Assembly (NCBI GenBank): GCA_030615855.1
Contig: JAUWYL010000013.1
Coordinates: forward strand, 1-36,278
Length of the DNA: 36,278 nt
Source of the DNA: a bacterium
GTDB lineage: Bacteria > UBP18 > UBA7526
Reading direction: 5' to 3'
In this document: piece by piece, positions 2,113-34,090 of the stretch
How the letters are laid out: every line of letters begins with the position of its first letter
Numbering within the stretch: position 1 is the stretch's first letter
The notes under the pieces: model-generated
Told to the model about the DNA's origin: nothing
Seen by the model: the letters and a program-made list of their open reading frames with translations, nothing else
Databases searched by the model: none
Position numbers and translations under genes: made by a program

Positions 2113-2116
2113 CCGA

Positions 2117-2200
2117 GGAAAGTGGGAAAGTGGGAAAGTGAGAGTCAAACCGGTCAACTGGTAAACCGGCAAACTGGCTAACTGGCAAACCGTCAAACTG
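2117..2200 (+). repeat. 8-bp-period tandem array between mraY and murD
   Basis: The whole spacer reads as about ten consecutive 8-bp units. It begins with GTGGGAAA twice and drifts into CAAACCGG / TCAACTGG / TAAACCGG / CAAACTGG types. The array ends about ten bases before the murD ATG and leaves no recognisable Shine-Dalgarno. It is the only clear octamer array I see; most other arrays here are heptamers. Confidence 0.7.
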
Positions 2201-2209
2201 AAAGTAGCT

Positions 2210-3550: not shown

Positions 3551-3828
3551 ATCACAAATCGCAAACAAGATGAAAGCATATCAGAATAGACGCCAGACAA
3601 GCTGGCTAAATTCTTCGCGATGCTCTGAATGCAGCAAATCAGTGGGCAGAATATCAGAACATCAGAAAATTCTTCTTTCAAGCCTGATATCCTGATCTTC
3701 TGATACCCTCCCTTCTGATACCCTGATTCTCTGATCTGCTTATTTCCTTTTGGGGTATGGGGCATTAAAAATTTTATTGGGAATTAGAAATTGGTAATTG
3801 GAAATTATTGGAAAAATTGAGGTAGTCA
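3551..3828 (+). repeat. murD-ftsW spacer: palindrome plus convergent ATCAGA/TCTGAT arrays
   Basis: No gene is visible in these 278 bases. A first palindrome at about 3579-3632 contains GCCAG-acaag-CTGGC at its centre. A second, longer imperfect palindrome (3633-3740) starts AGCAAATCAG, holds a left array of ATCAGAA-type units, and ends with TCTGAT/CTGAT units and CTGATCTGCT, the inverted form of its start. From about 3775 to 3815 a different heptamer array (GAAATTG/GTAATTG) leads to the ftsW start. No convincing terminator or promoter was found. Confidence 0.65.
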
Positions 3829-5037
3829 ATGAAAAGAATCTCTTCCCATCTGGGACTCTTTCTAATAACCCTGGCCCTGATAAGCATAGGGATCATCATG
3901 GTCTATAGTGCCAGCGCCATCCTCTCCTTGGAGAGGTATAATGACCCCTATTTCTTTTTGAAGCGCCAGCTGGCTTGGGTCCTTTTGGGCCTTTCTGGGA
4001 TGCTTATCGCCGCAAGGATTAACTACCGTGCCCTACCCAAGCTATTAAAGCCTGCACTCTTCCTTACTCTTTGCTTACTCATCATGGTCCTCTTTCCCCA
4101 GTTTGGGAAGGAGATCGCTGGTGCCCGGAGGTGGCTCAAGATAGGAGACTTCACCCTTCAGCCTTCAGAGCTGGCCAAGCTCATCCTCATCCTCTATATG
4201 GCAGATACCCTCTCCAGAAAGAAAGAGAAGATAAAGAGCTTTGCTTATGGTTTCCTCCCCCCGCTTATCATCCTGGGGGCCATCTTTATCCTCATCCTCC
4301 TCCAGCCAGATTTAGGAACTGCCCTCATAATCCTGGTGGTTATTCTGGGGATGCTCTTTGTCTCTGGGGTGCGCTTGAAGTATCTCTTCTCCCTATTCCT
4401 CATTGCCCTCCCCAGCATCTGGCTCTTAATCAACAAGGTCGGTTATAGAAAGAGAAGGATCCTGGCCTTCCTCGATCCCTGGGGCGATCCTCGGGGCTAT
4501 GGCTTCCAGATCATCCAGTCCCTTCTCGCCTTAGGGTCGGGGGGGATCTTCGGTCGGGGTTTAGGAGAGGGAACCCAGAAGCTCTTCTACCTTCCTGCTC
4601 CCCATACCGACTTCATCTTCGCCATACTGGGTGAGGAGCTTGGGTTCTTGGGGGGGATAGCGGTCATCATTCTCTTTGGGGCATTCATCTATTCTGGGGC
4701 CAGGATCGCTCGCCGGGCCCCGGACCTCTTCGGTAGCCTCCTGGCCTTGGGGATAACCACCTGGATCGGACTACAGGCCATGATCAATATCGGGGTAGCC
4801 ACGGGAACCCTGCCCACCAAAGGGATACCCCTGCCCTTCATAAGCTTCGGTGGCTCCTCCCTGGTCTTCTCTTTAATCGGAGTGGGAATCCTCTTGAGCA
4901 TCTCCCTACGCAGCCATAGGTCGCCGACGCTCTCCATCCTCCGAAACAAAGCTTCTGCGGAGGACGGGCATGGCTTTGGTCACTTACGCTCCAGAGTTTC
5001 AGCGACGGGGCGCGACGGAGCGAGGCAGAAGAGATGA
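3829..5037 (+). CDS. ftsW: Peptidoglycan glycosyltransferase FtsW, with a repeat-derived C-terminal tail
   Basis: FtsW is the SEDS-family glycosyltransferase that polymerises lipid II at the septum. The product has about ten membrane segments, the early IMVYSAS motif, the AGARRWL loop near residue 98, KLILILYMAD, and the conserved loops QPDLGTALI, FLDPWGDPRGYGFQ, HTDFIFAILGEELG and KGIPLPFISFGGSS. The family core ends near residue 364 (LLSISLRSH). The last ~38 residues are encoded by GC-rich palindromic DNA (4934-4967 and following) and look like an addition. The stop TGA overlaps the murG start (ATGA at 5034-5037), which suggests translational coupling. Confidence 0.95.
   Translation: MKRISSHLGLFLITLALISIGIIMVYSASAILSLERYNDPYFFLKRQLAWVLLGLSGMLIAARINYRALPKLLKPALFLTLCLLIMVLFPQFGKEIAGARRWLKIGDFTLQPSELAKLILILYMADTLSRKKEKIKSFAYGFLPPLIILGAIFILILLQPDLGTALIILVVILGMLFVSGVRLKYLFSLFLIALPSIWLLINKVGYRKRRILAFLDPWGDPRGYGFQIIQSLLALGSGGIFGRGLGEGTQKLFYLPAPHTDFIFAILGEELGFLGGIAVIILFGAFIYSGARIARRAPDLFGSLLALGITTWIGLQAMINIGVATGTLPTKGIPLPFISFGGSSLVFSLIGVGILLSISLRSHRSPTLSILRNKASAEDGHGFGHLRSRVSATGRDGARQKR
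4934..4967 (+). repeat. GC-rich palindromic element inside the ftsW 3' end
   Basis: CCATCCTCCG at 4934-4943 is answered by CTGCGGAGGACGG at 4955-4967, an inverted repeat with an 11-base middle. The same core (CCATCCTCCG ... CTGCGGAGGATGG) lies in frame inside trpE at 31989-32028. A second inverted pair (CGCTCC ... GGAGCG) follows within about 4988-5027. Both are translated as the FtsW tail. Confidence 0.7.
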
Positions 5038-6158
5038 GGATCCTAGTTACTGGGGGAGGGACAGGAGGCCACATCTATCCAGCACTGGCCATTGCCCATC
5101 GCCTTAGAAAAGAGAATTATCGGATCCTCTTTGTGGGAGCAGAAGAGGCCCTGGACAGGGATATCATTATCCGGGAAGGCTTTGAATTCAGAAGCATCTC
5201 GGTCCTACCTCTAGAGAGAAGGGTCTCCCTTCAATTACTTAAATTTCTAATTAAATTCATCATGGGATTCTTCCAATCCTTTCCCGTTCTATTTAATTTC
5301 AAGCCCCATCTAATAGTAGGTACTGGAGGATATTCCAGCGCCCCGGTTGCTCTGGCAGCCTATTTCTTGCGCATCCCTCTTCTGATCCATGAGCAGAACC
5401 TCTATCCTGGCCTGACCAATCGCTTCCTCTCTCGCTTCGCAAAAGAGATAAACATCACTTTTGCGGAGTCGAAGGAATATTTTAAGAAGAAAGAGGCAAG
5501 AGTAACGGGAAATCCCATACGAGAAAAGATCTTGAATCTGGATAGGGAAAGAGCACTCAAAGACCTTAAGCTTCGTTCCAAGAGGTTTAATCTCTTAATC
5601 TTTGGGGGGAGTCGGGGGGCGAGGGCCATCAACTATTGCCTTGCCCAAGTCCTAAAAAAAGGTCTCTTAGAAGGAAAGGGTCTCCAGATCATCCTCCTCA
5701 CCGGCTTTCTCGACTTTGAGTACCTCATTCAGGCTTCAAAGAGTAGTAAGATTCCTTTACTCATAAAGCCCTTTCTCCATAATATGGCCCAGGCCTACGG
5801 GGCGGCAGACCTGATCGTCTCTCGAGCCGGAGCAACCACCTTAGCCGAGCTCACTGCCTGCGGCCTGCCCGCCATTCTCATCCCCTATCCCCATGCCACC
5901 AGCAGGCATCAGGAGTATAATGCCCGTTTCCTTGCCAAAGAAGGAGCGGCTATGGTAATATTGGAGAAGGACCTCTCTCCAGAGAGGTTGGCAGATAGCA
6001 TCCTGCGGTTGATGAGAGATAAAGAGAGATTGGAAAGGATGAGGGAGAGAAGTAGGGGGTTGGGAAGGCCCTGGGCAACAGATCGGGTGATGGAGTCCAT
6101 CTATAAATTGACGATGGCTAAGCCATCACTTCGCGAGGAAAAATGTTTAAGAAAGTAG
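5034..6158 (+). CDS. murG: UDP-N-acetylglucosamine--N-acetylmuramyl-(pentapeptide) pyrophosphoryl-undecaprenol GlcNAc transferase
   Basis: MurG adds GlcNAc to lipid I to give lipid II on the cytoplasmic face of the membrane. The 374-residue GT-B protein starts with the G-loop TGGGTGGHIYPA, has GTGGYSSAP near residue 97, IHEQNLYPGLTNR near 119, TGNPIRE near 156, the FGGSRGARAIN second G-loop near 190, and the donor-site SRAGATTLAEL and PYPHATSRHQEYNA motifs. It begins inside the ftsW stop codon (ATGA). A GAGG in the ftsW palindromic tail lies just upstream. Its last codons overlap murC by 16 bases, and the tail is encoded over a small palindrome at 6113-6127. Confidence 0.97.
   Translation: MRILVTGGGTGGHIYPALAIAHRLRKENYRILFVGAEEALDRDIIIREGFEFRSISVLPLERRVSLQLLKFLIKFIMGFFQSFPVLFNFKPHLIVGTGGYSSAPVALAAYFLRIPLLIHEQNLYPGLTNRFLSRFAKEINITFAESKEYFKKKEARVTGNPIREKILNLDRERALKDLKLRSKRFNLLIFGGSRGARAINYCLAQVLKKGLLEGKGLQIILLTGFLDFEYLIQASKSSKIPLLIKPFLHNMAQAYGAADLIVSRAGATTLAELTACGLPAILIPYPHATSRHQEYNARFLAKEGAAMVILEKDLSPERLADSILRLMRDKERLERMRERSRGLGRPWATDRVMESIYKLTMAKPSLREEKCLRK
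6113..6127 (+). repeat. Small palindrome at the murG-murC junction
   Basis: GATGGCT and AGCCATC form a 7-bp inverted repeat separated by one base, inside the last codons of murG and just upstream of the murC ribosome-binding site (GAGGAAAA). As RNA the loop would open by a few bases. It could affect murC translation, but it may be chance. Confidence 0.45.
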
Positions 6159-7525
6159 AGAGAATCCACTTCATCGGCATTGGGGGAGCAGGGATGAGCG
6201 GCATGGCAGAACTCTTATTCAATCTGGGCTATAAGGTTACTGGTTCAGATATCGCAGAGAGCCCGGTAACGAAGAGGCTTAAAGATTTGGGAATAAAGGT
6301 CTATCTCGGCCATAGAAGTTCCCAGATCGGCCCCTGTGATGTAGTAGTTACCTCTAGTGCCATCCCTCCCAGCAATCCAGAGGTAAGGGCTGCGGTAGCG
6401 GCTAAGATACCGGTCATCCCCAGGGCGGTGATGCTTGCCGAACTGATGAGGATGAAGGAGGGGATCGCCATCGCCGGTACCCACGGGAAGACGACCACCA
6501 CCGCCATGGTGGCCAGGGTACTGGCCAAGGGAGGCCTGGATCCCACCTTCGTCATTGGGGGAATATTGAATAGGACGAGAAGTTCGGCCAAGCTGGGCAA
6601 AGGGGATTTTCTGGTGGCCGAGGCGGATGAATCGGATGGCTCCTTTCTTCATCTCTCTCCAGCCATGGCAATCGTCACCTCTATCGACGAGGACCATCTG
6701 GACTACTATGGCACACTTTCCAGGCTAAAAGAGACCTTCCTGGAGTTCATCAATAAGGTCCCCTTCTATGGCCTGGCTATACTCTGTTCTGACGATCCCA
6801 ATATCCGGGATTTCCTTCCTCGGGTGAAAAAGAGGTATCTCACCTATGGTCTGAAGGGACCAGCGGAGCTCATAGCCCAGAGAATAAAGAGGACGAAAAG
6901 GGGATTGGTAGAATTTACTGTCATCTATCACCAGAAGAATTTGGGAAGGATAACCCTGGGCCTTCCCGGTATCCATAACGTTCAAAATAGCCTGGCAGCT
7001 ATTGGGGTGGGTCTGGAGCTGGGCATCGACTTTGCTAATATCCGGAAGGCACTGAAGGATCTCAAAGGAGTAGAGAGGAGATTAGAAATCAAGGGGGAGA
7101 AAGAATCCATCCTGGTCATCGATGACTATGCCCACCATCCTACAGAAATAAGGGCGGTACTCGCCACCATTAAGGGGAGGTATCCAGGGAGAAGGGTAGT
7201 AGGCGTCTTCCAGCCCCATCGCTATACTAGAACCAGGGGTCTACTAAAAAGTTTTGCCGCCTGTTTTAAAGGTCTGGATATCCTGATCCTCGCTAAGATC
7301 TATCCTGCGGGTGAGAAGCCCATCCCGGGAGTAAAGACGAAGAACCTACTTCCCCTCATGGCTAAAAGAAAGAGGCCAAGGGTGAGATATATTGCTTCTT
7401 TGGAGAAAATAGTTAAGTATCTTCTAAAAATATTAGAGCCCAATGATTTACTTCTTACTTTAGGAGCCGGGGATGTCTATTGGGTGGGAGAGGAACTCCT
7501 CAGGAAAATGAAAAATGCAAAATGA
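6143..7525 (+). CDS. murC: UDP-N-acetylmuramate--L-alanine ligase
   Basis: MurC starts the peptide stem by adding L-Ala to UDP-MurNAc with ATP. The 460-residue product shows HFIGIGGAGMSG at the N-terminus, SSAIPPSNPE near residue 72, the P-loop AGTHGKTTTTAMV near 112, EADESDGSFL near 162, SIDEDHLDYYG near 184, HNVQNSLAA near 279, DDYAHHPTE near 330 and FQPHRYTRT near 355, all standard MurC signatures. The start overlaps the end of murG and follows GAGGAAAA. The last residues (RKMKNAK) are encoded by the AAAATGA heptamer array that also supplies the stop codon and the murB start. Confidence 0.97.
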   Translation: MFKKVERIHFIGIGGAGMSGMAELLFNLGYKVTGSDIAESPVTKRLKDLGIKVYLGHRSSQIGPCDVVVTSSAIPPSNPEVRAAVAAKIPVIPRAVMLAELMRMKEGIAIAGTHGKTTTTAMVARVLAKGGLDPTFVIGGILNRTRSSAKLGKGDFLVAEADESDGSFLHLSPAMAIVTSIDEDHLDYYGTLSRLKETFLEFINKVPFYGLAILCSDDPNIRDFLPRVKKRYLTYGLKGPAELIAQRIKRTKRGLVEFTVIYHQKNLGRITLGLPGIHNVQNSLAAIGVGLELGIDFANIRKALKDLKGVERRLEIKGEKESILVIDDYAHHPTEIRAVLATIKGRYPGRRVVGVFQPHRYTRTRGLLKSFAACFKGLDILILAKIYPAGEKPIPGVKTKNLLPLMAKRKRPRVRYIASLEKIVKYLLKILEPNDLLLTLGAGDVYWVGEELLRKMKNAK

Positions 7526-7550
7526 AAAATGAAAAATGTAAAATCAAAAA
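7503..7550 (+). repeat. AAAATGA heptamer array spanning murC stop and murB start
   Basis: About six units of the type GAAAAATG / GCAAAATG follow each other at 7-bp spacing. Each unit carries ATG, and most carry ATGA, so the array offers a start in one frame and a stop in another. murC ends at TGA 7523-7525 and murB can start at ATG 7522 in the same unit. No Shine-Dalgarno is near except AGGA at 7502-7505. Confidence 0.75.
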
Positions 7551-8451
7551 TAAGATTAGAGACGAGATTCAGAGGATAGTGAAGGGGGAAGTAAAGTTCG
7601 CTGAGCCTATGAGCAGGCATACCTCTTTTAACATTGGTGGCCCGGCGGACTGCCTCATTGCCCCCCAAGATATAGAGGATATAAGAAAAATTATTCTTTT
7701 TAGCAGAAAGAGAAAGCTCCCCCTAAGAGTAATGGGCCAGGGAACGAACCTCCTGGTCCGGGATAAGGGGGTAAGAGAAATAGTCATAAAGTTAGGGAAA
7801 GGTTTTGAGGGCATCAAGTTTTCAGGAGATCATCTTCTGGCAGGAGCGGCGGTGAGACTCTCTACTTTAATAAAGCTGGCTGCCTCCAAAGGATTGGGGG
7901 GTTTGGAGTTTGCTGTCGGTATCCCGGGGAGTCTGGGTGGGGCCGTGGCAACCAATGCTGGGACAGGAAGCCTTTCCATCTCTCAGAGGCTCATGAGTAT
8001 CCGGGTGATGTCTGAGGAAGGGAGGGTAAAGGATCTGGGAGCGAAGGATTTAAACTTTGGCTACCGTAGGTGCCCCCTGGGGAAGGATAGCATAATCCTA
8101 GATGCCAGACTGAGACTGGAGAGAGCGAAAGAGGAGGAGATCCTGAAGAGAATGAACACTTTCTTAGAGAAGAGAGAGAAGACCCAGCCCCTGGGCGCGG
8201 CCAATGCTGGCTGTATCTTCAAGAACCCAGATCCTAAGACTCCAGCAGCGAGGCTCATTGAAGAGACGGGATTAAAGGGGAAGAGGATAGGAAGGGCCGT
8301 TGTCTCTAAGGTCCATGCCAACTTCATCCTCAACCTGGGAAGAGCAAGAGCAGAGGATGTGCTCACCCTCATGGAAGCAATAAAGGAGGAAGTGAAGGGA
8401 AAGACAGGAATAGATCTGGAGCCAGAGATTGAGATCTGGGGAGAAGACTAA
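7522..8451 (+). CDS. murB: UDP-N-acetylenolpyruvoylglucosamine reductase
   Basis: MurB is the FAD- and NADPH-dependent reductase that makes UDP-MurNAc. Motifs: RHTSFNIGGPAD, the FAD-binding GQGTNLLVRD, GIPGSLGGAVATNAG near residue 134, LNFGYRR, the catalytic-serine region where the family's S is replaced by AANAGCIFKNP, and the C-terminal glutamate region EPEIEIWGE. The frame is open back to 7480 within murC, but I place the start at ATG 7522, which overlaps the murC stop as ATGA. The first dozen residues (MKNEKCKIKNK) are repeat-encoded. Product about 309 residues, normal for the family. The cysteine at the usual serine proton-donor position fits known variant MurB proteins. Confidence 0.94.
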   Translation: MKNEKCKIKNKIRDEIQRIVKGEVKFAEPMSRHTSFNIGGPADCLIAPQDIEDIRKIILFSRKRKLPLRVMGQGTNLLVRDKGVREIVIKLGKGFEGIKFSGDHLLAGAAVRLSTLIKLAASKGLGGLEFAVGIPGSLGGAVATNAGTGSLSISQRLMSIRVMSEEGRVKDLGAKDLNFGYRRCPLGKDSIILDARLRLERAKEEEILKRMNTFLEKREKTQPLGAANAGCIFKNPDPKTPAARLIEETGLKGKRIGRAVVSKVHANFILNLGRARAEDVLTLMEAIKEEVKGKTGIDLEPEIEIWGED

Positions 8452-8472
8452 TAAAAATGCAAAATTTAAAAT

Positions 8473-8495
8473 GCCTGCCTCGTCGGCAGACAGGC
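8473..8495 (+). repeat. REP-like palindrome at the murB-ddl junction
   Basis: GCCTGCC at 8473-8479 pairs with GGCAGACAGGC at 8485-8495. The same sequence occurs inverted at 21742-21762, with only a one-base insertion of difference over about 21 positions. It is surrounded by AAAATG/AAAATGA units (8455-8516). Confidence 0.7.
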
Positions 8496-8498
8496 AAA

Positions 8499-9425
8499 AT
8501 GAAAAATGAAAAATTAAAGAGACTTAAGAAGAAAAAAATTGGGGTTTTGATGGGTGGGACCTCTGCTGAGAGGGAGATCTCCCTGAAGACCGGGAAGGCC
8601 ATTCTTCAGGCCCTAAAGAGAAAGGGCTTGAAGGCAATTCCCATAGATGTTGGCAAGGATATCGCTGAGAGACTTCTGGGGGAGAAGATCGAATTGGCCT
8701 TCGTTGCCCTCCACGGGAGGGGAGGGGAGGATGGAACGGTACAGGGCCTGTTAGAATTATTGAAAATCCCCTATACGGGAAGTGGGGTCCTGGCCAGCGC
8801 CCTGGCCCTGAATAAAGTTCAGGCCAAGAAGGTCTTTAAGTTTCACAGACTCCCTGTTCCAAGATTCCAAGTTTTGAAGAAGGGTCAAGGGTCAAGGGTC
8901 AAGGGTCAAGGTTTCTCTTTGCCCCTGGTCATTAAGCCCGCCCGAGAGGGCTCAACCATAGGTCTCTCCATCGTCCACAATAAGAGGGATATAGGGAAGG
9001 CCATGGAGAAGGCCTTCGGGTATGACGAGGAGATCATATTAGAGGAGTATATCGAGGGGAAGGAAGTAACGGTAGGGATAGTGGGGGATGAAGCCCTGCC
9101 GGTCATTGAGATCCGGCCAAAGGATGTCTTCTATACATATGAGGCGAAGTATATTAAGGGACTGACGGACTTCATCATACCGGCCCGCTTATCTAAGAGA
9201 GTCTATTCACAAGTGCAGAGGATTGCCCTTGCTGCTTATCACGCCTTGGGCTGTCGCCACTTCGCCCGGGTGGACATGATAGTGAATAAGAAGAATAAGC
9301 CCTATCTCTTAGAGGTCAATACCATACCAGGCATGACCGCTACCAGCCTCCTCCCCCAGGCAGCAGCGAAAAGGGGGATCGGTTTCGATGATCTAGTGCT
9401 GAAAATTCTGGAATTAGCACTATAA
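8499..9425 (+). CDS. ddl: D-alanine--D-alanine ligase
   Basis: Ddl joins two D-alanines with ATP, giving the dipeptide used by MurF. It is an ATP-grasp enzyme with GVLMGGTSAEREISL at the N-terminus, ALHGRGGEDGTVQG, YTGSGVLASALALNK, the ATP-binding VIKPAREGSTIG, EEYIEGKEVTVGI, and the metal-binding end VDMIVNKKNKPYLLEVNTIPGMT. The frame is open from ATG 8457, but the first 14 codons there read through the palindrome. I prefer ATG 8499, close to the family start, although neither start has a good Shine-Dalgarno. The loop before VIKPA is built from four GGGTCAA units in frame (8882-8909). Confidence 0.94.
   Translation: MKNEKLKRLKKKKIGVLMGGTSAEREISLKTGKAILQALKRKGLKAIPIDVGKDIAERLLGEKIELAFVALHGRGGEDGTVQGLLELLKIPYTGSGVLASALALNKVQAKKVFKFHRLPVPRFQVLKKGQGSRVKGQGFSLPLVIKPAREGSTIGLSIVHNKRDIGKAMEKAFGYDEEIILEEYIEGKEVTVGIVGDEALPVIEIRPKDVFYTYEAKYIKGLTDFIIPARLSKRVYSQVQRIALAAYHALGCRHFARVDMIVNKKNKPYLLEVNTIPGMTATSLLPQAAAKRGIGFDDLVLKILELAL
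8882..8911 (+). repeat. In-frame GGGTCAA x4 array inside ddl
   Basis: Four exact copies of GGGTCAA lie at 8882-8909, followed by GG. They are translated as a G-S-R-V-K-G-Q type repeat, in the linker between the N-terminal and central domains of Ddl, where the family varies in length. Looser 7-bp periodicity extends some 20 bases upstream. Confidence 0.85.
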
Positions 9426-9490
9426 AAAGTAGGAGAGGAAGTAAGAAAGTAAGTAATACAAAGTGCAAAATTAGCAATATAAAATGTAAA
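9426..9490 (+). repeat. Heptamer spacer between ddl and ftsQ
   Basis: Units such as AAAGTGC, AAAATTA, AAAATGT and AAAATGA run up to the ftsQ start at 7-bp spacing. The ftsQ ATG is itself part of the last unit. No clear Shine-Dalgarno is present near the start; the GGAGAGGAAG at about 9431-9441 is too far upstream. Confidence 0.6.
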
Positions 9491-10303
9491 ATGAGAAAGT
9501 ATCGCATTAAAAACCTTAGGATCGCTCCCCGACCTAAACATCTTAAGGGGAAAAGAAAAAGGATAAAGAGTCTCTTTAAGAATACCTTTAGGTTACTTCT
9601 CATCTTAGCCATCGTCTCCTCTCTGGGATTTATGGGGAAGTGGTTCCATGAATTTATTCATACCTCTTCGAGTTTTAATATAGAGGAGATCGATATCCAG
9701 GGATTGAATCGACTGAAGGAGAAAGAGATCCTCAATCTTTTATCTTTAGAGCTTCCCCAGAATATATTCTACATGGATCTGAAAGAAGCAAGAGAGAGGA
9801 TCGAGACCCACCCCCGCATCAAAGAGGCCATCATCCATCGTCGTCCCCCAGGGAGGGTCATCATCCGGGTCAGGGAGAGGGAACCCATGGCCCTCATTAA
9901 TCGGGAAGGGGAGTTCTTGGGGATAGATTCCTCATGCGTTCCCTTTCCCCTGGTGGAGCCCCTAAAGGGAGTTGATCTACCCCTCATCACGGGAATAGAA
10001 TCCGGCGAGATAATCATTGGTGAAGAGTCAAAATCTCCCAATCTCAGGACGGCCCTGGATATCCTGAAGACCATTCTCTCTTTGAAGGGGCACTTATTCA
10101 GCCAGATCTCAGAGATAAATGTGCTAAATGGGATAATCCTCTATACCATAGGGGCCACCCGGGTTCGAATGGGAAAAGAGGACTTCCGGGATCAACTTCT
10201 CAATCTCCAGGGGGTGCTCATTCACCTGAATCAGGAGAAGAGGAGGGCGGAATATATCGATCTAAGATTCAAGAATAAAGTCATTGTCAAAGAACACGAA
10301 TAG
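9491..10303 (+). CDS. ftsQ: Cell division protein FtsQ (POTRA domain)
   Basis: FtsQ is a bitopic membrane protein that links early and late divisome proteins. The 270-residue product has a basic cytoplasmic N-terminus, one membrane segment at about residues 33-50 (LLLILAIVSSLGFMG), then a POTRA domain (FNIEEIDIQGLNRLKEKEIL) and the FtsQ/DivIB segment with RRPPGRVIIRVREREPMALI and GVDLPLITGI. Position between ddl and ftsA is canonical. The ATG is inside a heptamer array and lacks an obvious ribosome-binding site. Confidence 0.93.
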   Translation: MRKYRIKNLRIAPRPKHLKGKRKRIKSLFKNTFRLLLILAIVSSLGFMGKWFHEFIHTSSSFNIEEIDIQGLNRLKEKEILNLLSLELPQNIFYMDLKEARERIETHPRIKEAIIHRRPPGRVIIRVREREPMALINREGEFLGIDSSCVPFPLVEPLKGVDLPLITGIESGEIIIGEESKSPNLRTALDILKTILSLKGHLFSQISEINVLNGIILYTIGATRVRMGKEDFRDQLLNLQGVLIHLNQEKRRAEYIDLRFKNKVIVKEHE

Positions 10304-10404
10304 ACACGAACTGACACGAGAAAAGATAGGAAATGACACACGAAATAACACGAAGAAATTCGTGTGAATTCGTAATAAATTCGCGTGGATTCGTGTAATA
10401 TGAT
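10291..10404 (+). repeat. Convergent ACACGA / TTCGTGT array upstream of ftsA
   Basis: ACACGA recurs at exactly 10-bp steps on the left side, starting at the end of ftsQ (gAACACGAAtag, then two more). TTCG(T/C)G units recur at 10-11 bp steps on the right side. The centre is CACGAA-gaaa-TTCGTG at about 10349-10364. The whole spacer can fold as an imperfect hairpin, leaving the ftsA ribosome-binding site GAGGAG (10406-10411) just outside it. Confidence 0.7.
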
Positions 10405-10415
10405 AGCGAGGAGAA

Positions 10416-11651
10416 ATGGCGAAAGAGGACTTTGTCGTTGGACTCGATATCGGGACAACCAAAATCTGTGCCCTTGTAGGGAAAAGAGACCTGGAGGGAA
10501 GAATAGAAATCTTGGGCCTGGGCCTCAGTCCCTCTAAGGGCTTGCGCAAAGGGATGGTAGTTGACATAGAGCATACCATTCAATCCATAACCAAGGCAGT
10601 TGAGGAGGCAGAAGCTCAAGCTGGGGTTGAGATAACCGGGATCTATGCCGGGATTGCCGGAGGACATATCGAAGGATTAAACAGGAGCGGGGCGGTGGCT
10701 GTTGCTCATCCAAACAGGGAGATTACCAGGAGGGATGTGGAGCGGGCGATGAATGCTGCCCAGGTGGTAGCCATATCCCCGGATAGGGAGGTCATCCATG
10801 TCCTTCCCCAGGACTTCACCATCGATGATCAGGATGGGATTAAGGAGCCGGTGGGCATGTCCGGGGTGAGATTAGAGGCCAGGATTCACATCGTCACCGG
10901 AGCCGTGGCTGCTGCCCAGAATATTGTGCGGAGCGTCAATCGGGCTGGCTTCCGGGTGGAGGACATTATCCTCCAGCCCCTGGCCTCAGCAGAGGCGGTC
11001 CTGACCCCGGAAGAGAAGGAGCTAGGGGTGGTCTTGGTCGACATTGGAGGAGGAACCTCGGATATCACCCTCTTCCTGGAGGGGAATGTGTGGCATACTG
11101 CGGTTCTCTCCGTAGGAGGGGATCAGGTAACCAATGACGTCGCCATCGGTCTTTCTACCCCCATCAGTGGCGCAGAGAAAATAAAGAAAAGCTACGGTTC
11201 CTGTCTCACTTCCTTAGTGGGAGAGGAGGAGATGCTCCGTATTCCCGGGATTGGGGGAAGGAAGGATCACCCCCTAAAAAGAAGGGTCTTGAGTGAGATA
11301 ATTCAGCCCAGGATGGAGGAGATATTCTCTTTAGTAAATGAGGAGATAAGGAAGACTGGTTATGAGGACTTGGTCAATGCTGGAGTAGTCGTTACTGGTG
11401 GCGCCTCCTTAATGAAGGGGGTGGTGGAATTGGCGGAGCAGGTTCTCGATGTTCCGATAAGACTTGGCCTGCCCCAGGGGGTTAGTGGACTTACTCCGAA
11501 CGTAAATAGTCCCATCTACGCCACCGGGGTTGGTCTGGTCATGCAGGGTCTGAGGTATCGTGCCTTGGGCCGGCCCTCAAGGTTCACCGAGGGCCATCTC
11601 TTCACCAAGATCACAGATAGGATGAAGGAGTGGCTCAAAGAATTTTTTTAA
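10416..11651 (+). CDS. ftsA: Cell division protein FtsA
   Basis: FtsA is the actin-like protein that anchors FtsZ to the membrane. The 411-residue product has the phosphate-1 motif VGLDIGTTKICALVG, the SHS2/1C region HVLPQDFTIDDQDGIKEPVGMSGVRLE near residue 128, phosphate-2 VDIGGGTSDITLF near 208, the adenosine motif GVVVTGGASLMKG near 328, and a C-terminal amphipathic helix (ITDRMKEWLKEFF) that fits the membrane-targeting sequence. The start follows GAGGAG with five bases spacing. It is separated from ftsZ by only nine bases. Confidence 0.97.
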   Translation: MAKEDFVVGLDIGTTKICALVGKRDLEGRIEILGLGLSPSKGLRKGMVVDIEHTIQSITKAVEEAEAQAGVEITGIYAGIAGGHIEGLNRSGAVAVAHPNREITRRDVERAMNAAQVVAISPDREVIHVLPQDFTIDDQDGIKEPVGMSGVRLEARIHIVTGAVAAAQNIVRSVNRAGFRVEDIILQPLASAEAVLTPEEKELGVVLVDIGGGTSDITLFLEGNVWHTAVLSVGGDQVTNDVAIGLSTPISGAEKIKKSYGSCLTSLVGEEEMLRIPGIGGRKDHPLKRRVLSEIIQPRMEEIFSLVNEEIRKTGYEDLVNAGVVVTGGASLMKGVVELAEQVLDVPIRLGLPQGVSGLTPNVNSPIYATGVGLVMQGLRYRALGRPSRFTEGHLFTKITDRMKEWLKEFF

Positions 11652-11660
11652 GAGGAAGAA

Positions 11661-12752
11661 ATGGCTATTGAATTTGAGGAAGAGATTCAGGTTCCCACAA
11701 AGATAAAGATCATCGGCCTGGGCGGTGGAGGGGGGAATGCTGTGGGAAGACTAGTGGATAAGAGGCTTCCCCAAGTAGATCTCATTGTGGCCAATACCGA
11801 TGCCCAAGCCTTGAAAGGTTGTCGAGTCTCCCAGAAGATCCAACTGGGCTGTAAGATCACCAAGGGCCTCGGTTCCGGAGCTGATCCCGAGATCGGGAAA
11901 AACGCTGCCCTTGAGGATAGGGAAAGAATAAGAGAAGCCTTGGAGGAGGCAGACATCGTCTTTGTCGCTGCCGGGTTAGGAGGGGGAACGGGAACCGGCG
12001 CTGCTCCAGTCGTTGCCCAGGTCTCGCACTCTCTGGATGCTCTGACCATCGCTATTGTTACCCTCCCCTTTACCTTTGAGGGGAGAAGGCGGGCCCTTGT
12101 GGCAGAGGCCGGCCTCAAAGAACTGAGGCCCAAAGTGGACATCCTGATCGCTATCCCCAATCAGAGATTAATCGATCTGGTGGAAAAAGGGGATTCCATT
12201 ATCCAGGCCTTCCAGCCAGCAGATGATATCCTCTATCACGGGGTAGCTTCTCTCTCAGATCTGGTGAGCCTTCCCGGATTGGTCAACGTAGACTTCGCCG
12301 ATATTCGAACAGTCATGAACTCTAAGGGAGAGGCTATTCTAGGATTTGGAAAGGCAAAAGGAGAAAAGAGAGCTCTTGAGGCTACCCAACTGGCCCTGGC
12401 CAATCCCCTATTAGAGGAAAAATCCATTAAAGGAGCAAAGGGTGCCTTAATCAATATTGCTGGACCCAAGGACCTTACCCTGAGCGAAGTAAACGAAGTG
12501 ATGGACATCGTCCACAAAGAGGCGGATGACGATGCCCAGATTATCTTTGGAGCGGGAATAGACGAAAGACTCGAGGAGCTAATCAAGGTAACGGTGATTG
12601 CCACGGGCCTGGAGACTCCTGAGAGAGAGGAGGAGGAACCAAAGAGAATCGAAACCATAGACTTTGAAGCCCTACTTTCTAAAGAGCGTGGCATTCCGGC
12701 AGGAAAAGACGAGGAGTATCTGGATATCCCCACCTTCATAAGAAAGAAATAG
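11661..12752 (+). CDS. ftsZ: Cell division protein FtsZ
   Basis: FtsZ is the tubulin-like GTPase that forms the Z-ring. The 363-residue protein contains GLGGGGGNAV near residue 19, NTDAQAL, the tubulin signature GLGGGTGTGAAPV near 105, TLPFTFEGRRR, the T7-loop region VNVDFADIRTVM, and the conserved C-terminal tail DIPTFIRKK that binds FtsA and other partners. The start follows AGAGGAAG. It is the last gene of the cluster. The stop is followed at once by a hairpin and later by strong terminators. Confidence 0.98.
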   Translation: MAIEFEEEIQVPTKIKIIGLGGGGGNAVGRLVDKRLPQVDLIVANTDAQALKGCRVSQKIQLGCKITKGLGSGADPEIGKNAALEDRERIREALEEADIVFVAAGLGGGTGTGAAPVVAQVSHSLDALTIAIVTLPFTFEGRRRALVAEAGLKELRPKVDILIAIPNQRLIDLVEKGDSIIQAFQPADDILYHGVASLSDLVSLPGLVNVDFADIRTVMNSKGEAILGFGKAKGEKRALEATQLALANPLLEEKSIKGAKGALINIAGPKDLTLSEVNEVMDIVHKEADDDAQIIFGAGIDERLEELIKVTVIATGLETPEREEEEPKRIETIDFEALLSKERGIPAGKDEEYLDIPTFIRKK

Positions 12753-13217: not shown

Positions 13218-13272
13218 TTAAAATAGAGTTCAACTTCTGATAGAGTAGAAGTTGAAAGCAAGAGGTATCAAA

Positions 13273-16200
13273 ATGGTTGAGCATACCCACTTCGTTCATC
13301 TTCATGTCCATACCGAGTATAGCCTTCTGGACGGTGCCTGCCGCCTGAAAGACCTGGTGAAGGCCGCCCGAGACTATCGCATGCCTGCTCTGGCCATTAC
13401 CGATCATGGGAATATGTTTGGGTCCATCGACTTCTATCGCACGGCCATGACCCGGGGAATAAAGCCCATCATTGGCTGTGAAGTCTACGTTGCCCCCAAG
13501 TCAAGATTTGAGAAATCTCTAAGTCAGACGAAAGAAGCCTCCTACCATCTGGTGCTCTTAGTGAAGGATGAGACGGGCTATAGGAATCTGATAAAACTGG
13601 TCTCCATCGCTTACTTAGAAGGCTTCTACTATAAACCGAGGGTGGATAAAGAGGTCCTGACCAAATATCATGAGGGGCTAATCGCCCTATCCGGCTGCCT
13701 GAAGGGAGAGATCCCCACCCTCATCCTGGATAATAGGATAGAGGAGGCGAAGAAGGTAGCCCTAGAATATAAAGATATATTTGGGCAAAAGAACTTTTTC
13801 TTAGAGCTCCACGATCATGGAATAGCGGAGCAGAAGAGGGTAAATAAGGAACTGATCTCGATGGGAAAAGAACTGGGAATCGGCCTGGTGGCCACTAACG
13901 ACTGCCACTATATCAGAAGGTCAGATGCTCCGGCTCATGATATCCTCTTATCCATCCAGACCGCCACCACCATCGATGACCCCAACCGCCTCAGGTTCTC
14001 CACAGAGGAGTTCTATCTCAAGTCCCCTCAGGAGATGGGAGACCTCTTCCGCCATATACCAGAGGCCATTGAGAATACTATTCAGATCGCAGAAAGATGT
14101 AACCTAGAACTTAGTTTTGGCGAAACCTACCTCCCTCATTATAAACCTCCCGAGGGCTATACCCTGGATGACTACTTAGGGGGACTCTGCCATAAAGGGC
14201 TAAAGGAAAGGCATCCTCAGGCTACACCGGAGATAGAAGAGAGGCTGGAGCACGAATTAAAGATCATCAAGGATACGGGATACGCCTCTTACTTTTTAAT
14301 CGTTTGGGATTTTATCCAGCTTGCCAAGAGTAAAGGGATTGCGGTTGGCCCGGGAAGGGGTTCTGCTCCGGGAAGCTTGGTGGCCTTCTCCTTAGGCGTC
14401 ACCAGTCTCGACCCCCTAAAACATGGTCTTCTCTTTGAACGTTTCTTGAACCCGGAACGGGTAACCATGCCCGATATCGACATCGATTTCGCTGATGACC
14501 GAAGGGATGAGGTCATCGACTATGTGATAGAGAAGTATGGTAAGGAGAATGTTGCTCAGATCGCCACCTTCGGCACCATGAAAGCCCGGGCGGTGGTCAG
14601 AGATGTGGGAAGAAGCCTTAAGATCCCATATTCTGAAGTGGACAGGATCGCCAAGCTCATTCCTCCTGAGATAGGCATAACCATTGAACGGGCCTTAAGC
14701 ATGGTTCCCGAGTTAAAGGAACTTACCAAGAAGAACGAGAAGGTGAAGAGGCTGGTTGATATTGCCAAGTCACTGGAAGGCCTGGTGCGCCACGCCTCTA
14801 CCCATGCTGCAGGAATAGTAATTTCCAAAGAACCCCTGACAAACCATGTTCCCCTCTTTAAAGGAGCCCGGGATGAGATCGCCACCCAGTATGCCATGGG
14901 ACCCTTAGAGGCCATTGGCTTACTCAAGATGGACTTCCTTGGTCTGCGTAACCTCACGGTCATGGGCAATACTATGAAGATTCTAAAGGAGAAAGAGAAT
15001 ATCGATATCGATATGAGCAAGATCCCCTTGGATGATGAGAAAACCTTCCAGCTTCTAAGGAAGGCCCATACGGTTGGTGTATTCCAGATAGAATCAAGCG
15101 GGATGAGGGATCTCTTAAAGAAGCTCAAGCCAGAGGAATTCTCAGATATTGTCGCTTTAATCGCCTTATATCGACCAGGCCCTATGGGAAGCGGCATGAC
15201 GGATGACTTCATCAGGAGGAAGCATGGCCTCATTCCTATAAAGTATCTCCACTCCAGGTTAGAGCCCATCCTGAAGGATACCTATGGGGTCATTCTCTAT
15301 CAGGAGCAGGTGATGCGCATCGCAAGTGACCTGGCGGGCTTCACTATGGCCAAGGCAGACCTCTTAAGGCAGGCCATGGGAAAGAAGATTTCGGTGCTTT
15401 TAGATCAGCAGAGAAAGGAGTTCGTAGAAGGAGCAATAAAGAATGAAATAAGTAGAAATATTGCGAATAGGATCTTTGACCTCATCTCCCACTTCGCAGG
15501 TTATGGTTTCAATAAGAGCCATTCCAGCGCCTATGCTTTGATTTCCTATCAGACCGCCTATCTTAAGGCCAATTATCCTTTATACTATATGGCGGCCCTC
15601 CTTACCAGCGAGATGAATAATACTGATAAACTTATTAAGTATATTGAATTGACAAAGAGGATGGAGATCGATATCCTTCCCCCAGATATTAATGAGAGCA
15701 TGAGGGATTTTACGGTAGTAGGGAATGGCATCAGGTTTGGCCTGGCAGCAGTGAAGAATGTGGGGTCTGGGGCCATCACCTCTATGACTGAGATACGCGA
15801 GAAAAAGGGGAAATTCCGCTCACTATACCATTTCTGTGAGGAGGTGGATACCAGGCTCATCAATAGAAGGGCGATAGAGAGCCTCATAAAGTGTGGGGCC
15901 CTCGATTCCCTGGGAGCAAAGCGCTCCCAGCTCATGGCCGTCATGGATGAGGCCTTAGAGCGAGCGAGTGTGAGACAGAAGGAGCGGGCCCGGGGGCAGA
16001 CTTCCTTCTTGGAGGTCCTGGAAGAGGTGAGAGAGACTGGCTATCTTCCCGATATGGAGGAGTGGCCAGAGAATAAGCTCTTGGCCTTTGAGAAAGGGGC
16101 CCTGGGATTCTATATCTCAGGCCATCCCTTAGCCAGATTCTCCCGGGTTCTGGAGAAGTATACCACCACTACCACTGCCGAACTGGGAGAACTGACCAAT

Positions 16201-16704
16201 GGAAGCGAAGTTACTCTGGGGGGAATAATAACTACCTTGAGGCTCATCACCACCAGGAACGGAAAACGGATGGCCTTTGCCGGCTTAGAGGACTTGAAGG
16301 GAAGGGTGGAGGTCATCGTCTTTCCCGATGTCTATAATCAAGAGGCCTCTCTAGTAAGGAAGGAGACCATGGTCATCATCAAGGGAAGGGTGGATAAGAG
16401 TGGAGAGATAGCCAAGGTCATTACCTCCCAGATCCTTCCCCTGGAAGAGGCAGAGGAGCTCTTGACGAAAGCGATTCACATCAATATGACCACCACAGGA
16501 TTGGAAGGGGAGATGCTGAACCCCCTGAACAAGATTATGCTCAACCATCCGGGAGAGGCGAAGGTCTATCTCCATCTCAGGACCACCCATCATGGGGAGG
16601 CGGTGATAAGCCCCGGCCCCAGGATTAAGGTGAAGGCAACCCCGAAACTTAAGAGAGAGATTGAGGAGCTATTGGGAGAAGGAACTATCTATTATACAAG
16701 TTGA
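13273..16704 (+). CDS. dnaE: DNA polymerase III subunit alpha
   Basis: DnaE is the replicative polymerase. The 1143-residue product (1150 from an upstream TTG at 13252) fits DnaE1. It starts with the PHP domain (HLHVHTEYSLLDGA, ITDHGNMFGSIDF), followed by the polymerase palm with GPGRGSAPGSLVAF near residue 364 and the catalytic PDIDIDFADDRRDEV near 406. Further on are HAAGIV, LLKMDFLGLRNL, ALYRPGPM and YQEQVM, the HhH region FAGYGFNKSHSSAYA, and a C-terminal OB-fold (VTLGGIITTLRLITTRNGKRMAF). I prefer ATG 13273 because AAGAGG lies seven bases upstream, while TTG 13252 lies inside a hairpin. Transcription probably starts at the promoter at 13115-13143. Confidence 0.96.
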   Translation: MVEHTHFVHLHVHTEYSLLDGACRLKDLVKAARDYRMPALAITDHGNMFGSIDFYRTAMTRGIKPIIGCEVYVAPKSRFEKSLSQTKEASYHLVLLVKDETGYRNLIKLVSIAYLEGFYYKPRVDKEVLTKYHEGLIALSGCLKGEIPTLILDNRIEEAKKVALEYKDIFGQKNFFLELHDHGIAEQKRVNKELISMGKELGIGLVATNDCHYIRRSDAPAHDILLSIQTATTIDDPNRLRFSTEEFYLKSPQEMGDLFRHIPEAIENTIQIAERCNLELSFGETYLPHYKPPEGYTLDDYLGGLCHKGLKERHPQATPEIEERLEHELKIIKDTGYASYFLIVWDFIQLAKSKGIAVGPGRGSAPGSLVAFSLGVTSLDPLKHGLLFERFLNPERVTMPDIDIDFADDRRDEVIDYVIEKYGKENVAQIATFGTMKARAVVRDVGRSLKIPYSEVDRIAKLIPPEIGITIERALSMVPELKELTKKNEKVKRLVDIAKSLEGLVRHASTHAAGIVISKEPLTNHVPLFKGARDEIATQYAMGPLEAIGLLKMDFLGLRNLTVMGNTMKILKEKENIDIDMSKIPLDDEKTFQLLRKAHTVGVFQIESSGMRDLLKKLKPEEFSDIVALIALYRPGPMGSGMTDDFIRRKHGLIPIKYLHSRLEPILKDTYGVILYQEQVMRIASDLAGFTMAKADLLRQAMGKKISVLLDQQRKEFVEGAIKNEISRNIANRIFDLISHFAGYGFNKSHSSAYALISYQTAYLKANYPLYYMAALLTSEMNNTDKLIKYIELTKRMEIDILPPDINESMRDFTVVGNGIRFGLAAVKNVGSGAITSMTEIREKKGKFRSLYHFCEEVDTRLINRRAIESLIKCGALDSLGAKRSQLMAVMDEALERASVRQKERARGQTSFLEVLEEVRETGYLPDMEEWPENKLLAFEKGALGFYISGHPLARFSRVLEKYTTTTTAELGELTNGSEVTLGGIITTLRLITTRNGKRMAFAGLEDLKGRVEVIVFPDVYNQEASLVRKETMVIIKGRVDKSGEIAKVITSQILPLEEAEELLTKAIHINMTTTGLEGEMLNPLNKIMLNHPGEAKVYLHLRTTHHGEAVISPGPRIKVKATPKLKREIEELLGEGTIYYTS

Positions 16705-26226: not shown

Positions 26227-28749
26227 ATGGGAAGATACTATCCTTTCCAGAAGATTGAGAAAAAATGGCAGGATTACTGGAGGAAGAGGAACCAGTTTAA
26301 GGTCAAGGAAGACCCCAAGAAGAAAAAGTACTATCTTCTTGAGATGTTTCCTTATCCATCTGGAAAGCTCCATATGGGCCATATGAGAAATTACGTGGTA
26401 GGGGATACCCTGGCTCGCTTCTTGAGGATGAAAGGATATAACACATTATACCCTATGGGCTATGACTCCTTCGGCCTTCCGGCAGAGAATGCTGCTCTTC
26501 AGAATAGAACCCATCCTGCAGAGTGGACGAAGAGATGCATCTCTGATATGAGGAAGCAGCAGGAGAAGATGGGATTATCCTATGACTGGAATAGGCTGAT
26601 CATCACCTGTCAGCCAGACTATTATAAATGGAATCAGTGGATCTTCTTGAAGTTCTATGAGAGGGGATTGGCCTATAAGAGGAAGGCGCCCATCAACTGG
26701 TGCCCCTCTTGTAAAACAGTCTTAGCCAATGAACAGGTTGAGGAGGGGAAGTGCTGGAGATGCGAATCAAGGGTTGAGATAAGAGACTTAGAGCAGTGGT
26801 TCTTCAAGATTACAGAATATGCTCAGGAATTATTAGAAGATTTAGAGAGGTTGGAGGGATGGCCGGAGAGGGTGAAACTGATGCAGGAGAACTGGATCGG
26901 AAGATCAACTGGAACTCTGGTCAACTTCAGACTCAAGGATAGCGATAAGATCCTCCCCATCTTTACTACCAGGCCAGATACTCTCTATGGAGTGACCTTC
27001 ATGACCATGGCCTGTGAACATCCCTTGGTTTTAGAATTGGTTGAGGGTACCAAATATGAGAAAGAAGTTAGGGAATTTATAAATAGAGTAATCTTGGAGG
27101 ATAGATTTACCAGAACGGCAGAGGATAAGGAGAAGGAAGGGGTCTTCATTGGTAGGTGCGCCATCAATCCCCTAACCAATGAAGAGATTCCCGTCTATGT
27201 GGCCAACTTCGTTCTCTTAGAGTATGGTACCGGGATTATCATGGCCGTTCCTGCCCATGATCAAAGAGACTTCGAGTTCGCCCAGAAATATAACATCCCC
27301 ATAAAGCAAGTCATTCAGAAGTCAGATATCAGATATCAGATATCTGAATTGACTGAGGCTTATATTGACCCTGGAATCATGGTAGATTCTGCTCAATTCA
27401 CTGGTCTGAAATCAGAAGAGGCCAAGGGGAAGATTACTACCTATCTAAAAGAGAAGGGGTGGGGGAAGAGGGCGGTTCAGTATAAGTTGCGCGATTGGCT
27501 CATATCCCGCCAGAGATACTGGGGAACACCCATTCCTATCATCTACTGCAAGAAGTGTGGAGTAGTTCCTGTTCCGAGAGAGGAACTACCGGTAGAATTA
27601 CCGCAGGATGTTAAATTTACCGGAAAAGGTAACCCCCTAAAGAAATGTCAAGAATTTGTAAATTGCAGATGTCCTAAGTGTAAGGGGAAGGCCAGAAGGG
27701 AGACGGATACCATGGATACCTTCGTTGACTCCTCCTGGTACTTCTCTAGATATTGTAGCCCGGATTATGATAAGGAACCATTTGATAAAAAGAGGATAGA
27801 TTACTGGATGCCCGTTGATCAGTATATTGGGGGAATAGAGCACGCCATTATGCATCTTTTATATGCCCGATTCTTTACCAAGGCCTTGAGAGACATAAAA
27901 TTATATAAGATCGATGAGCCCTTCAAGAGACTATTCTGTCAGGGGATGGTGGTAAAGGATGGGGCCAAGATGTCCAAGTCAAAGGGGAATGTGGTCTCTG
28001 TTGACGAGATAACGAATAAATACGGTGCAGATACTGCCCGGCTATTCATTCTCTTTGCCTCTCCTCCAGAAAAGGACCTGGAATGGAGTGTGGAAGGAGT
28101 AGAAGGGTCATTTAGGTTTTTGAATAGGGTATGGAGATTAATTAATGATTTTAATTTCCAATTTCCCCCGGCCTCGCCAAGCGAAGCGGGGCGGGCAATT
28201 TCTAATTTACAAGGTAAACCCGAAACCCGAAACCCGAAACCCGAAACTGAGTTAAAAAAGATTACTCATAAAACGATTAAGAAGGTGACTGAGGATATTG
28301 AAAAGAGGTTCCATTTCAATACCGCCATCTCTGCCATTATGGAGCTGGTCAATGCTATACAAAACTCAAAACTCAAAACTCAAAACTCAAAACTCCGAAC
28401 TCCGAACTCCGAACTCCGAAAAGCTATTGAGACCGTAGTGCTATTACTATCTCCCTTTGCTCCCCATATCTGTGAAGAGATCTGGGAGAACCTGGGTAAT
28501 AAACCGAGTATCGGCCAAAAGGATTGGCCAACCTATGATCCAAAAGCAATTATAGAAGAGGAGATTCTAATCGTCATTCAAGTAGATGGAAAACTCCGAA
28601 GCAGAATAAAGGTCCCTATAAATTCAAGCGATGACGAAGTAAAAGAGAAGGCCTTAGCGGATGACAGAATAAAGAAATTTATTTCGGAAAAAAAGATCAA
28701 AAGAGTCATTTTAGTGCCCAAGAAACTGGTGAATATCGTCACCAGATAG
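26227..28749 (+). CDS. leuS: Leucyl-tRNA synthetase with repeat-encoded insertions
   Basis: Class I synthetase that charges tRNA-Leu. The 840-residue product has the HIGH-type motif PSGKLHMGHMRNY near residue 45, a zinc-like CPSC...CWRC, the editing domain with TTRPDTLYGVTF and the aspartate in VPAHDQRDFEF, a second cysteine set (CKKCG, CRCPKCKG), SRQRYWGTPIPI, and KMSKSKGN at 581-588. The anticodon-binding helices (TIKKVTEDIEKRFHFNTAISAIMELV, LSPFAPHICEEIWE) follow. Three repeat tracts are translated in frame: CAGATAT x3 in the editing-domain loop (27323-27343), a palindrome plus CCCGAAA x4 (28158-28250), and ACTCAAA/ACTCCGA x8 (28364-28419). All lie where family members vary in length, so the enzyme is probably active. 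Confidence 0.96.
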   Translation: MGRYYPFQKIEKKWQDYWRKRNQFKVKEDPKKKKYYLLEMFPYPSGKLHMGHMRNYVVGDTLARFLRMKGYNTLYPMGYDSFGLPAENAALQNRTHPAEWTKRCISDMRKQQEKMGLSYDWNRLIITCQPDYYKWNQWIFLKFYERGLAYKRKAPINWCPSCKTVLANEQVEEGKCWRCESRVEIRDLEQWFFKITEYAQELLEDLERLEGWPERVKLMQENWIGRSTGTLVNFRLKDSDKILPIFTTRPDTLYGVTFMTMACEHPLVLELVEGTKYEKEVREFINRVILEDRFTRTAEDKEKEGVFIGRCAINPLTNEEIPVYVANFVLLEYGTGIIMAVPAHDQRDFEFAQKYNIPIKQVIQKSDIRYQISELTEAYIDPGIMVDSAQFTGLKSEEAKGKITTYLKEKGWGKRAVQYKLRDWLISRQRYWGTPIPIIYCKKCGVVPVPREELPVELPQDVKFTGKGNPLKKCQEFVNCRCPKCKGKARRETDTMDTFVDSSWYFSRYCSPDYDKEPFDKKRIDYWMPVDQYIGGIEHAIMHLLYARFFTKALRDIKLYKIDEPFKRLFCQGMVVKDGAKMSKSKGNVVSVDEITNKYGADTARLFILFASPPEKDLEWSVEGVEGSFRFLNRVWRLINDFNFQFPPASPSEAGRAISNLQGKPETRNPKPETELKKITHKTIKKVTEDIEKRFHFNTAISAIMELVNAIQNSKLKTQNSKLRTPNSELRKAIETVVLLLSPFAPHICEEIWENLGNKPSIGQKDWPTYDPKAIIEEEILIVIQVDGKLRSRIKVPINSSDDEVKEKALADDRIKKFISEKKIKRVILVPKKLVNIVTR
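27323..27343 (+). repeat. CAGATAT x3 in the leuS editing-domain loop
   Basis: Three exact CAGATAT units followed by CTG, also palindromic around CAGATATCTG. Translated as part of KSDIRYQISE. Confidence 0.75.
28158..28250 (+). repeat. Palindrome plus CCCGAAA x4 inside leuS
   Basis: A GC-rich hairpin (about 28166-28191, CCCCG...CGC-caa-GCG...CGGGG) is followed by AATTTCTAATTT and by four exact CCCGAAA units (28219-28246). It is translated as a proline-rich insert (GKPETRNPKPET) between two helices of the anticodon-binding domain. Confidence 0.8.
28364..28419 (+). repeat. ACTCAAA x4 + ACTCCGA x4 inside leuS
   Basis: Eight consecutive heptamers, 56 bases, in frame. The peptide repeats every seven residues (QNSKLKT / QNSKLRT / PNSELRK), because 21 bases hold three heptamers and seven codons. 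The change from CAA to CGA after the fourth unit shows two homogeneous blocks, as expected from unit duplication. Confidence 0.9.
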
Positions 28750-28815
28750 TAAGTAACAAGTAGCAATTGTTCAATATTAATTGTTCAATGTTCATTGTAA
28801 ATTGTAAGCTATCAG
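28750..28815 (+). repeat. Heptamer spacer between leuS and lptE
   Basis: Units ATTGTTC / AATATTA / AATGTTC / ATTGTAA follow at 7-bp spacing. The ribosome-binding site GGGGGA (about 28816-28821) lies just after the array. Confidence 0.6.
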
Positions 28816-33902: not shown

Positions 33903-34088
33903 CGGTAAACGGTGACCGGATTACGAGTAACGGGTAACGAGTTACGGGTGACGGGGAAAGTAGGAAACGGAGAAGAAGAGAAATGGGGAAAGGGAAAAGT
34001 CAAATTGCAAATTTCAAAGTGCAAAATGAAAAATGGAGAATTAGGTGATTAACTGTTTTCAATTTTTACTTTTTACTTTTTACTTGTT
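33903..34088 (+). repeat. holA-murJ spacer: three successive heptamer arrays
   Basis: About seven units of GGTAACG type (GTAAACG, GTGACCG, GATTACG, AGTAACG and so on, 33905-33954) come first. After a purine-rich stretch come units TGCAAAT / TTCAAAG / TGCAAAA / TGAAAAA (about 34001-34036), then TTTTTAC three times (34066-34085), the inverted form of the preceding GTAAAAA-like type. No promoter or terminator is clear. Confidence 0.7.
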
Positions 34089-34090
34089 AA

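Follow-up and report, generated by a model that had tools for sequence, protein, structure and literature searches.

Dispersed heptamer repeats have been described in bacteria. They include the cyanobacterial STRR and the GGGAATC repeats of Xanthomonas and Nostoc (PMC4692102), as well as the TAACTGA repeats of Beggiatoaceae (PMC4679880). An earlier proposal, reported in passages of both papers, holds that the heptamer length may reflect the stretch of DNA held by the polymerase (PMC4692102; PMC4679880). The arrays discussed here belong to this known kind; what is new is their in-frame position in many housekeeping genes, with units of 7 or 8 bp, and the turnover of these units in register. The arrays in leuS are probably part of a family-wide set of dispersed 7/8-bp micro-arrays that are turned over by replication misalignment and filtered by the reading frame.

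The window (the whole stretch of DNA analysed, 36,278 nucleotides) carries a leucyl-tRNA synthetase (LeuRS) gene whose repeats were singled out in a sequence-only reading as arrays within a single essential gene. Three arrays are indeed present in one intact open reading frame (ORF), at the places named sites A, B and C in Table 1. The split AATTTCC-type repeat at site B is a fourth heptamer array, interrupted. Site C had been described as two blocks of four units each; the two blocks stand, whereas the counts are really about five and four (five ACTCAAA-type units, then four ACTCCGA-type units). The frame independence claimed for such repeats holds as well, the three frames of each array being rotations of one heptapeptide. 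An exact scan of the window for periods up to 30 returned only six arrays of period 7, one of period 8 and a short TC run, and 30 simulated Markov-3 control sequences gave no array at periods 4-12. Elsewhere in the window, a dcw cluster of cell-wall and division genes (mraY, murD, ftsW, murC, murB, ddl and ftsZ among others) occupies positions 1012-12752 and is followed by dnaE (13252-16704); several intergenic gaps of this cluster consist of 7/8-bp arrays.

Table 1. Array features of the window and their host gene (window coordinates).
Feature	Position	Strand	Remarks
leuS, bacterial leucyl-tRNA synthetase, host gene of the arrays	26227-28749	+	TIGR00396, 1105 bits; uninterrupted ORF, 840 aa
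leuS site A, TCAGATA x3.3	27322-27344	+	loop near end of editing domain; Tandem Repeats Finder, exact scan
leuS site B, first part, AATTTCC x2 (28153-28166) and AATTTCT+AATTTAC (28197-28210) around a 30-bp insert	28153-28210	+	sequence
leuS site B insert, 30 bp, G+C-rich, weakly hairpin-forming	28167-28196	+	DNA fold -9.9 kcal/mol, z only -1.6; also in G004
leuS site B, second part, AAACCCG x4.6	28216-28247	+	Tandem Repeats Finder, exact scan
leuS site C, two-block, CAAAACT x5.1 (28360-28395) into AACTCCG x4.3 (28391-28420)	28360-28420	+	Tandem Repeats Finder, exact scan
AAGGGTC x4.6 array inside ddl (8457-9425)	8880-8911	+	in register with a diverged G004 array
AAAATGA-type array where murC and murB meet; N-terminal end of the murB ORF, not within the matched domain	7505-7551	+	
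Intergenic 8-mer arrays, GGAAAGTG x3 and AAACCGGC-type, between mraY and murD	2117-2198	.	another array there in G004
Intergenic degenerate heptamer/14-mer array 3' of leuS	28765-28798	.	longer in G001, none in G005
Intergenic TTTTTAC array before murJ	34056-34089	.	

The arrays were said to lie in variable loops, and the structural data agree. The AlphaFold model of this LeuRS, whose best solved relative is 1h3n, has a mean pLDDT of 87.5. Values below 50 occur at sites B and C alone (residues 644-646, 648-670 and 722-725), and site A is modelled at about 80. The array residues are not conserved among 77 distant LeuRS, a comparison that the earlier reading had proposed. Against these proteins, the site A loop has the median length (31 residues in both), the site B loop is 11 residues longer (41 versus 30) and the site C loop has 28 residues versus 26, with up to 43 in other family members. 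Arrays in other enzymes have been placed on solved structures. The AhcY segment aligns gap-free to PDB 7o5l, the enolase segment is five residues longer than 4a3r and the three PurH segments are longer than 4ehi by about four, two and three residues. The arrays thus mostly overwrite native residues, with a net change of 0 to +6 residues and of +11 at site B.

The arrays were at first taken as a peculiarity of leuS. They are instead genome-wide, both in the window's own genome (G000; 1.375 Mb in 45 contigs) and in five relatives (G001-G005), and it is confirmed that the leuS arrays are a small part of this phenomenon. Searches at the family level and at the phylum level gave these same six genomes. 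Array statistics come from 677 kb of the 1375 kb and from partial samples of the relatives. In the 677 kb, a mismatch-tolerant detector found period 7 in 75 arrays, period 8 in 37, and periods 6 and 12 in one each; periods 4, 5, 9 and 11 were absent. Array density over the six genomes is about 65-350 per Mb, nearly all of it period 7 or 8.

ORFs make up about 88% of the DNA but hold about half of the arrays, so that the density per base is roughly nine-fold greater between ORFs than inside them. The ORF calls are mechanical, and the consensus unit contains a stop in 21 of 139 coding arrays, so that some arrays must have been wrongly assigned to ORFs. In the sample, ORFs with arrays fall into 69 families, and all 20 ORFs that were tested match known families: MurB, Ddl, SsnA, PurH, VorB, AhcY (two species), PcrA/UvrD helicase, enolase, KsgA, LysA, Mfd, ValRS, IleRS (two species), NadC, GatB, a GatA-like amidase and two radical-SAM proteins. 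Coding arrays are narrow in size (31-35 bp in 28 of 39), and intergenic arrays vary more in length.

Array sites are shared between species. In 209 usable coding comparisons, partly reciprocal, the partner also has an array in 176, and in 30 of these the array has the other period. When leuS is aligned across four to five species, as the sequence-only reading had advised, repeats stand in the same three loops with different units. At site A the species carry TCAGATA, an ACCGTTC-type unit, ACCGATC or a longer G+C-rich insert. At site B the AAACCCG array is identical in G000 and G004, and GCCACAA 7-mers are found in G003 and 8-mers in G001. Site C holds 7-mers in G000 and G005 and 8-mers in G004, G003 and G001. 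Assembly error is very unlikely because in-frame arrays recur at the same places in other genomes. At least one relative (L110, the same locus as G003) is a fragmentary metagenome-assembled genome, which would suit an assembly or binning artefact; however, the arrays, at about 32 bp, are shorter than reads, the frames are intact and the orthologs have a coherent structure, and we put the chance of an artefact close to nil.

Arrays of this kind could also be produced by classical slippage, that is by recent expansion from short seeds and whole-unit change, with steps of three units retained in genes. Such slippage would fit the homogeneous blocks and the more variable length of the intergenic arrays, and passages of two papers cite a link between the bacterial heptamer excess and polymerase slippage (PMC4692102; PMC4679880). 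The gain or loss of three units, which the earlier reading had also expected, is not supported by the orthologous period-7 in-gene comparisons: only 3 of 120 differ by exactly 21 nt, and 48 of 120 are equal in length. Length differences between orthologous coding arrays are nearly always multiples of three, and the number of units in genes is rather stable between species. Moreover, the array sites predate the species splits, and it is the identity of the unit that changes, not the number. The recent expansion that had been proposed for leuS holds for part of the gene: G004, the sister species, differs at sites A and C but has nearly the same array and insert at site B. Classical slippage is therefore an unlikely account of the arrays.

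The change of units takes place in register and in blocks. At one position of enolase, five species carry ATTACCA, GTTACGG, GTTAAGG, TTTACGG and GATTACC in the same register; four of these arrays are gap-free and one has a 51-nt insert inside it. Related units in register were likewise found at two sites of SsnA and three of PurH. Fourteen pairs of equal length have units that differ from each other at two or more positions. Their identity in register is 0.59, versus 0.26 when unrelated units are compared in random phase. These pairs preserve position, phase and period, and 85% of their differences belong to columns in which nearly all units differ. Variant columns also form two contiguous blocks within single arrays (86 observed versus 26 expected), leuS site C among them. 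Such patterns are the signature of a variant that spreads from unit to unit, a concerted evolution in place. Period switches and wholly different sites show that replacement of arrays happens too.

A function of the repeat peptide or of the DNA or RNA repeat, for instance as a flexible linker, in regulation or in chromosome organisation, might retain the arrays. The conservation of array sites across the family and the narrow size of coding arrays would agree with such a role, but the peptides of orthologs are completely different, the loops at sites B and C are predicted to be disordered and the unit sequence changes freely. Retention by function is accordingly quite improbable.

Units are shared locally. 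Two coding arrays of a genome that are separated by less than 1 kb carry the same unit in 8 of 22 cases, whereas arrays on different contig pieces do so in 55 of 1376 (Fisher p=2e-6). This approximately nine-fold difference between close and distant arrays rests on small numbers, the eight close pairs deriving from about seven loci. For example, both SsnA sites carry AACTCCG in G000 and AAAGTCC in G003. Sites B and C of leuS share a nearly identical composite 8-mer array in G001, and the site B array of G003 is different. Genome-wide homogenisation in trans was rejected, since far loci of the same genome share units in 2.8% of cases and loci of different genomes in 2.5%. For this reason only local copying is claimed.

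Some of these patterns would also be expected if small mobile elements, like Rickettsia palindromic elements or MITEs, had been inserted in frame into permissive loops and later replaced. Clean filled and empty sites exist between species (e.g., 110 bp in G003, at L058 11192, versus none in G004). Some units recur at unrelated loci, with 23 same-unit pairs in G000 versus 1.7 expected; a unit vocabulary is common to different loci and genomes, and composite 8-mer elements recur. However, nothing but period 7/8 is common to the sequences of the arrays, native residues are for the most part written over and not displaced, and orthologs with different units keep place, phase and length. The near-equal unit sharing of far same-genome and between-genome loci speaks against mobility as well. 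Reverse transcriptase and Y1 transposase were looked for and not found, and target-site duplication was not established. On balance, an origin from mobile elements appears improbable.

The composite 8-mer design consists of AGTTAACC/AGTTACCC units followed by AAACCGGC/AAACTGGC units, the two halves being approximately reverse-complementary. It recurs at coding and intergenic loci (L003 645-734, L100 4739-5038, L097 7099-7221, L085 7871-7964 and window 2148-2198). Within in-gene heptamer arrays, G+C-rich and mostly hairpin-forming inserts of 30, 30, 51 and 63 nt have been found, all multiples of three. They are located at leuS site B of the window, at about 277-306 of L106 (G005), in the enolase of G002 (L234) and in purH of G004 (L249). 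A general hairpin design of the arrays was rejected: an inverted-arm test (an array and a reverse-complement array within 70 bp) gave 2/150 versus 10/450 at strict thresholds, which is no excess, and a mild excess at looser ones. The RNase P RNA of the own genome (L204 6723-7131, minus strand) has an insert of approximately 70 nt near its 3' end in which a AATCTGCGGTAATCAGCG-like motif is repeated; no array of period 7 or 8 was reported in this RNA. The length of the RNase P RNA match varies among the relatives from 332 to 423 nt. Judging by the title of a 1997 paper by Vioque, STRR are reportedly present inside the essential RNA gene rnpB.

Replication misalignment by 7-8 nt is the reading that we favour. 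The nascent strand would mispair one unit away, copy and realign, so that the neighbouring unit would be written over the next one. Repeated overwriting would homogenise the array, and a variant would spread unit by unit. Now and then a longer template switch may replace an array, or carry one over to another array within about 1 kb, and such switches would include changes between period 7 and period 8. In genes, only frame-keeping outcomes would survive, which would explain why coding arrays keep their place, phase and often length while the unit changes. Coding arrays would persist in loops that tolerate almost any sequence. We infer the polymerase-level event, the realignment that follows it and whatever part a lack of mismatch repair may play. 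A search for MutS (TIGR01070) gave no match in the six family genomes, five of which are incomplete; 11 of 14 control genomes were positive. Missing MutS could ease copying between imperfect repeats, and alone would not be expected to favour 7 over 2.

Several observations do not sit easily with misalignment. Missing MutS should also destabilise units of 1-4 bp, yet these are not enriched. The wholly differing or period-switched sites (30/209) are unexplained by drift in place. The narrow size of coding arrays and the shared unit vocabulary are not predicted by misalignment, and the clean filled and empty counterparts look like insertion. A bolder proposal can be offered only tentatively, and we consider it more doubtful than probable: frequent misalignment and realignment by 7 or 8 nt, with length preserved, would rewrite coding sequence into a 7/8-bp periodicity without indels, the loops of core enzymes would evolve by templated block substitution rather than by point mutation, and the loss of MutS may have unleashed the process.

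The arrays bear on the question why heptamers dominate among bacterial simple repeats. Period-7/8 arrays at conserved sites in dozens of core genes, their length held by the frame, separate unit turnover from change in copy number. The lineage makes the polymerase-contact idea testable through substitutions that are templated from an offset of 7 or 8. Indels and amino-acid blocks in array loops are not independent mutations, which is relevant to phylogenies and tests of selection. The arrays also offer natural data on how freely the loops of LeuRS, enolase or AhcY accept arbitrary peptide.

How widely are such arrays distributed? A scan for the pattern ACCGWTC x3 was positive in all six family genomes versus 1 of 50 distant genomes. 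Metagenome-assembled genomes that bear the labels Nitrospira sp. and Nitrospirae have LeuRS genes in which 7- or 8-bp arrays stand in the site A loop and at other places (L153 3051-3086 and 3661-3692; L173 3078-3112, 3547-3576 and 4062-4089). Because these two distant leuS genes also have site A arrays, the phenomenon is probably wider than the family. In the openly licensed literature, no description was found of 7/8-bp arrays that lie in frame in many housekeeping genes and turn over their units in register, and a literature search for six unit strings gave no matches.

The arrays can be compared with three known systems. Borg tandem repeats and their aaTR proteins (PMC9879509) are similar in that about half of them are located in ORFs, where they preserve the frame and encode disordered segments. 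Their in-ORF units are divisible by three, whereas the units here are of 7 or 8 bp, and they often lie in surface proteins of extrachromosomal elements rather than in chromosomal core enzymes. Rickettsia palindromic elements (PMC10969869) likewise place repeated DNA in frame within unrelated metabolic genes, apparently compatible with function, as the 69 ORF families do here. However, they are palindromic insertions of about 150 bp that fall into sequence families, and no common palindrome of ~100-150 bp was found among the arrays, which are tandem, about 32 bp long, unrelated in unit and largely written over native residues. The STRR-like heptamer repeats agree in form: both systems consist of many dispersed short arrays of 7-bp units, with heptamers dominating over other unit lengths, and GGGAATC favours about four units. 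STRR-like repeats are mainly of one or a few unit types and mostly non-coding. By contrast, the arrays described here have periods 7 and 8 and dozens of unit types (46 distinct units in 92 period-7 arrays), about half of them are in ORFs of housekeeping genes, and their units are replaced in register between species.
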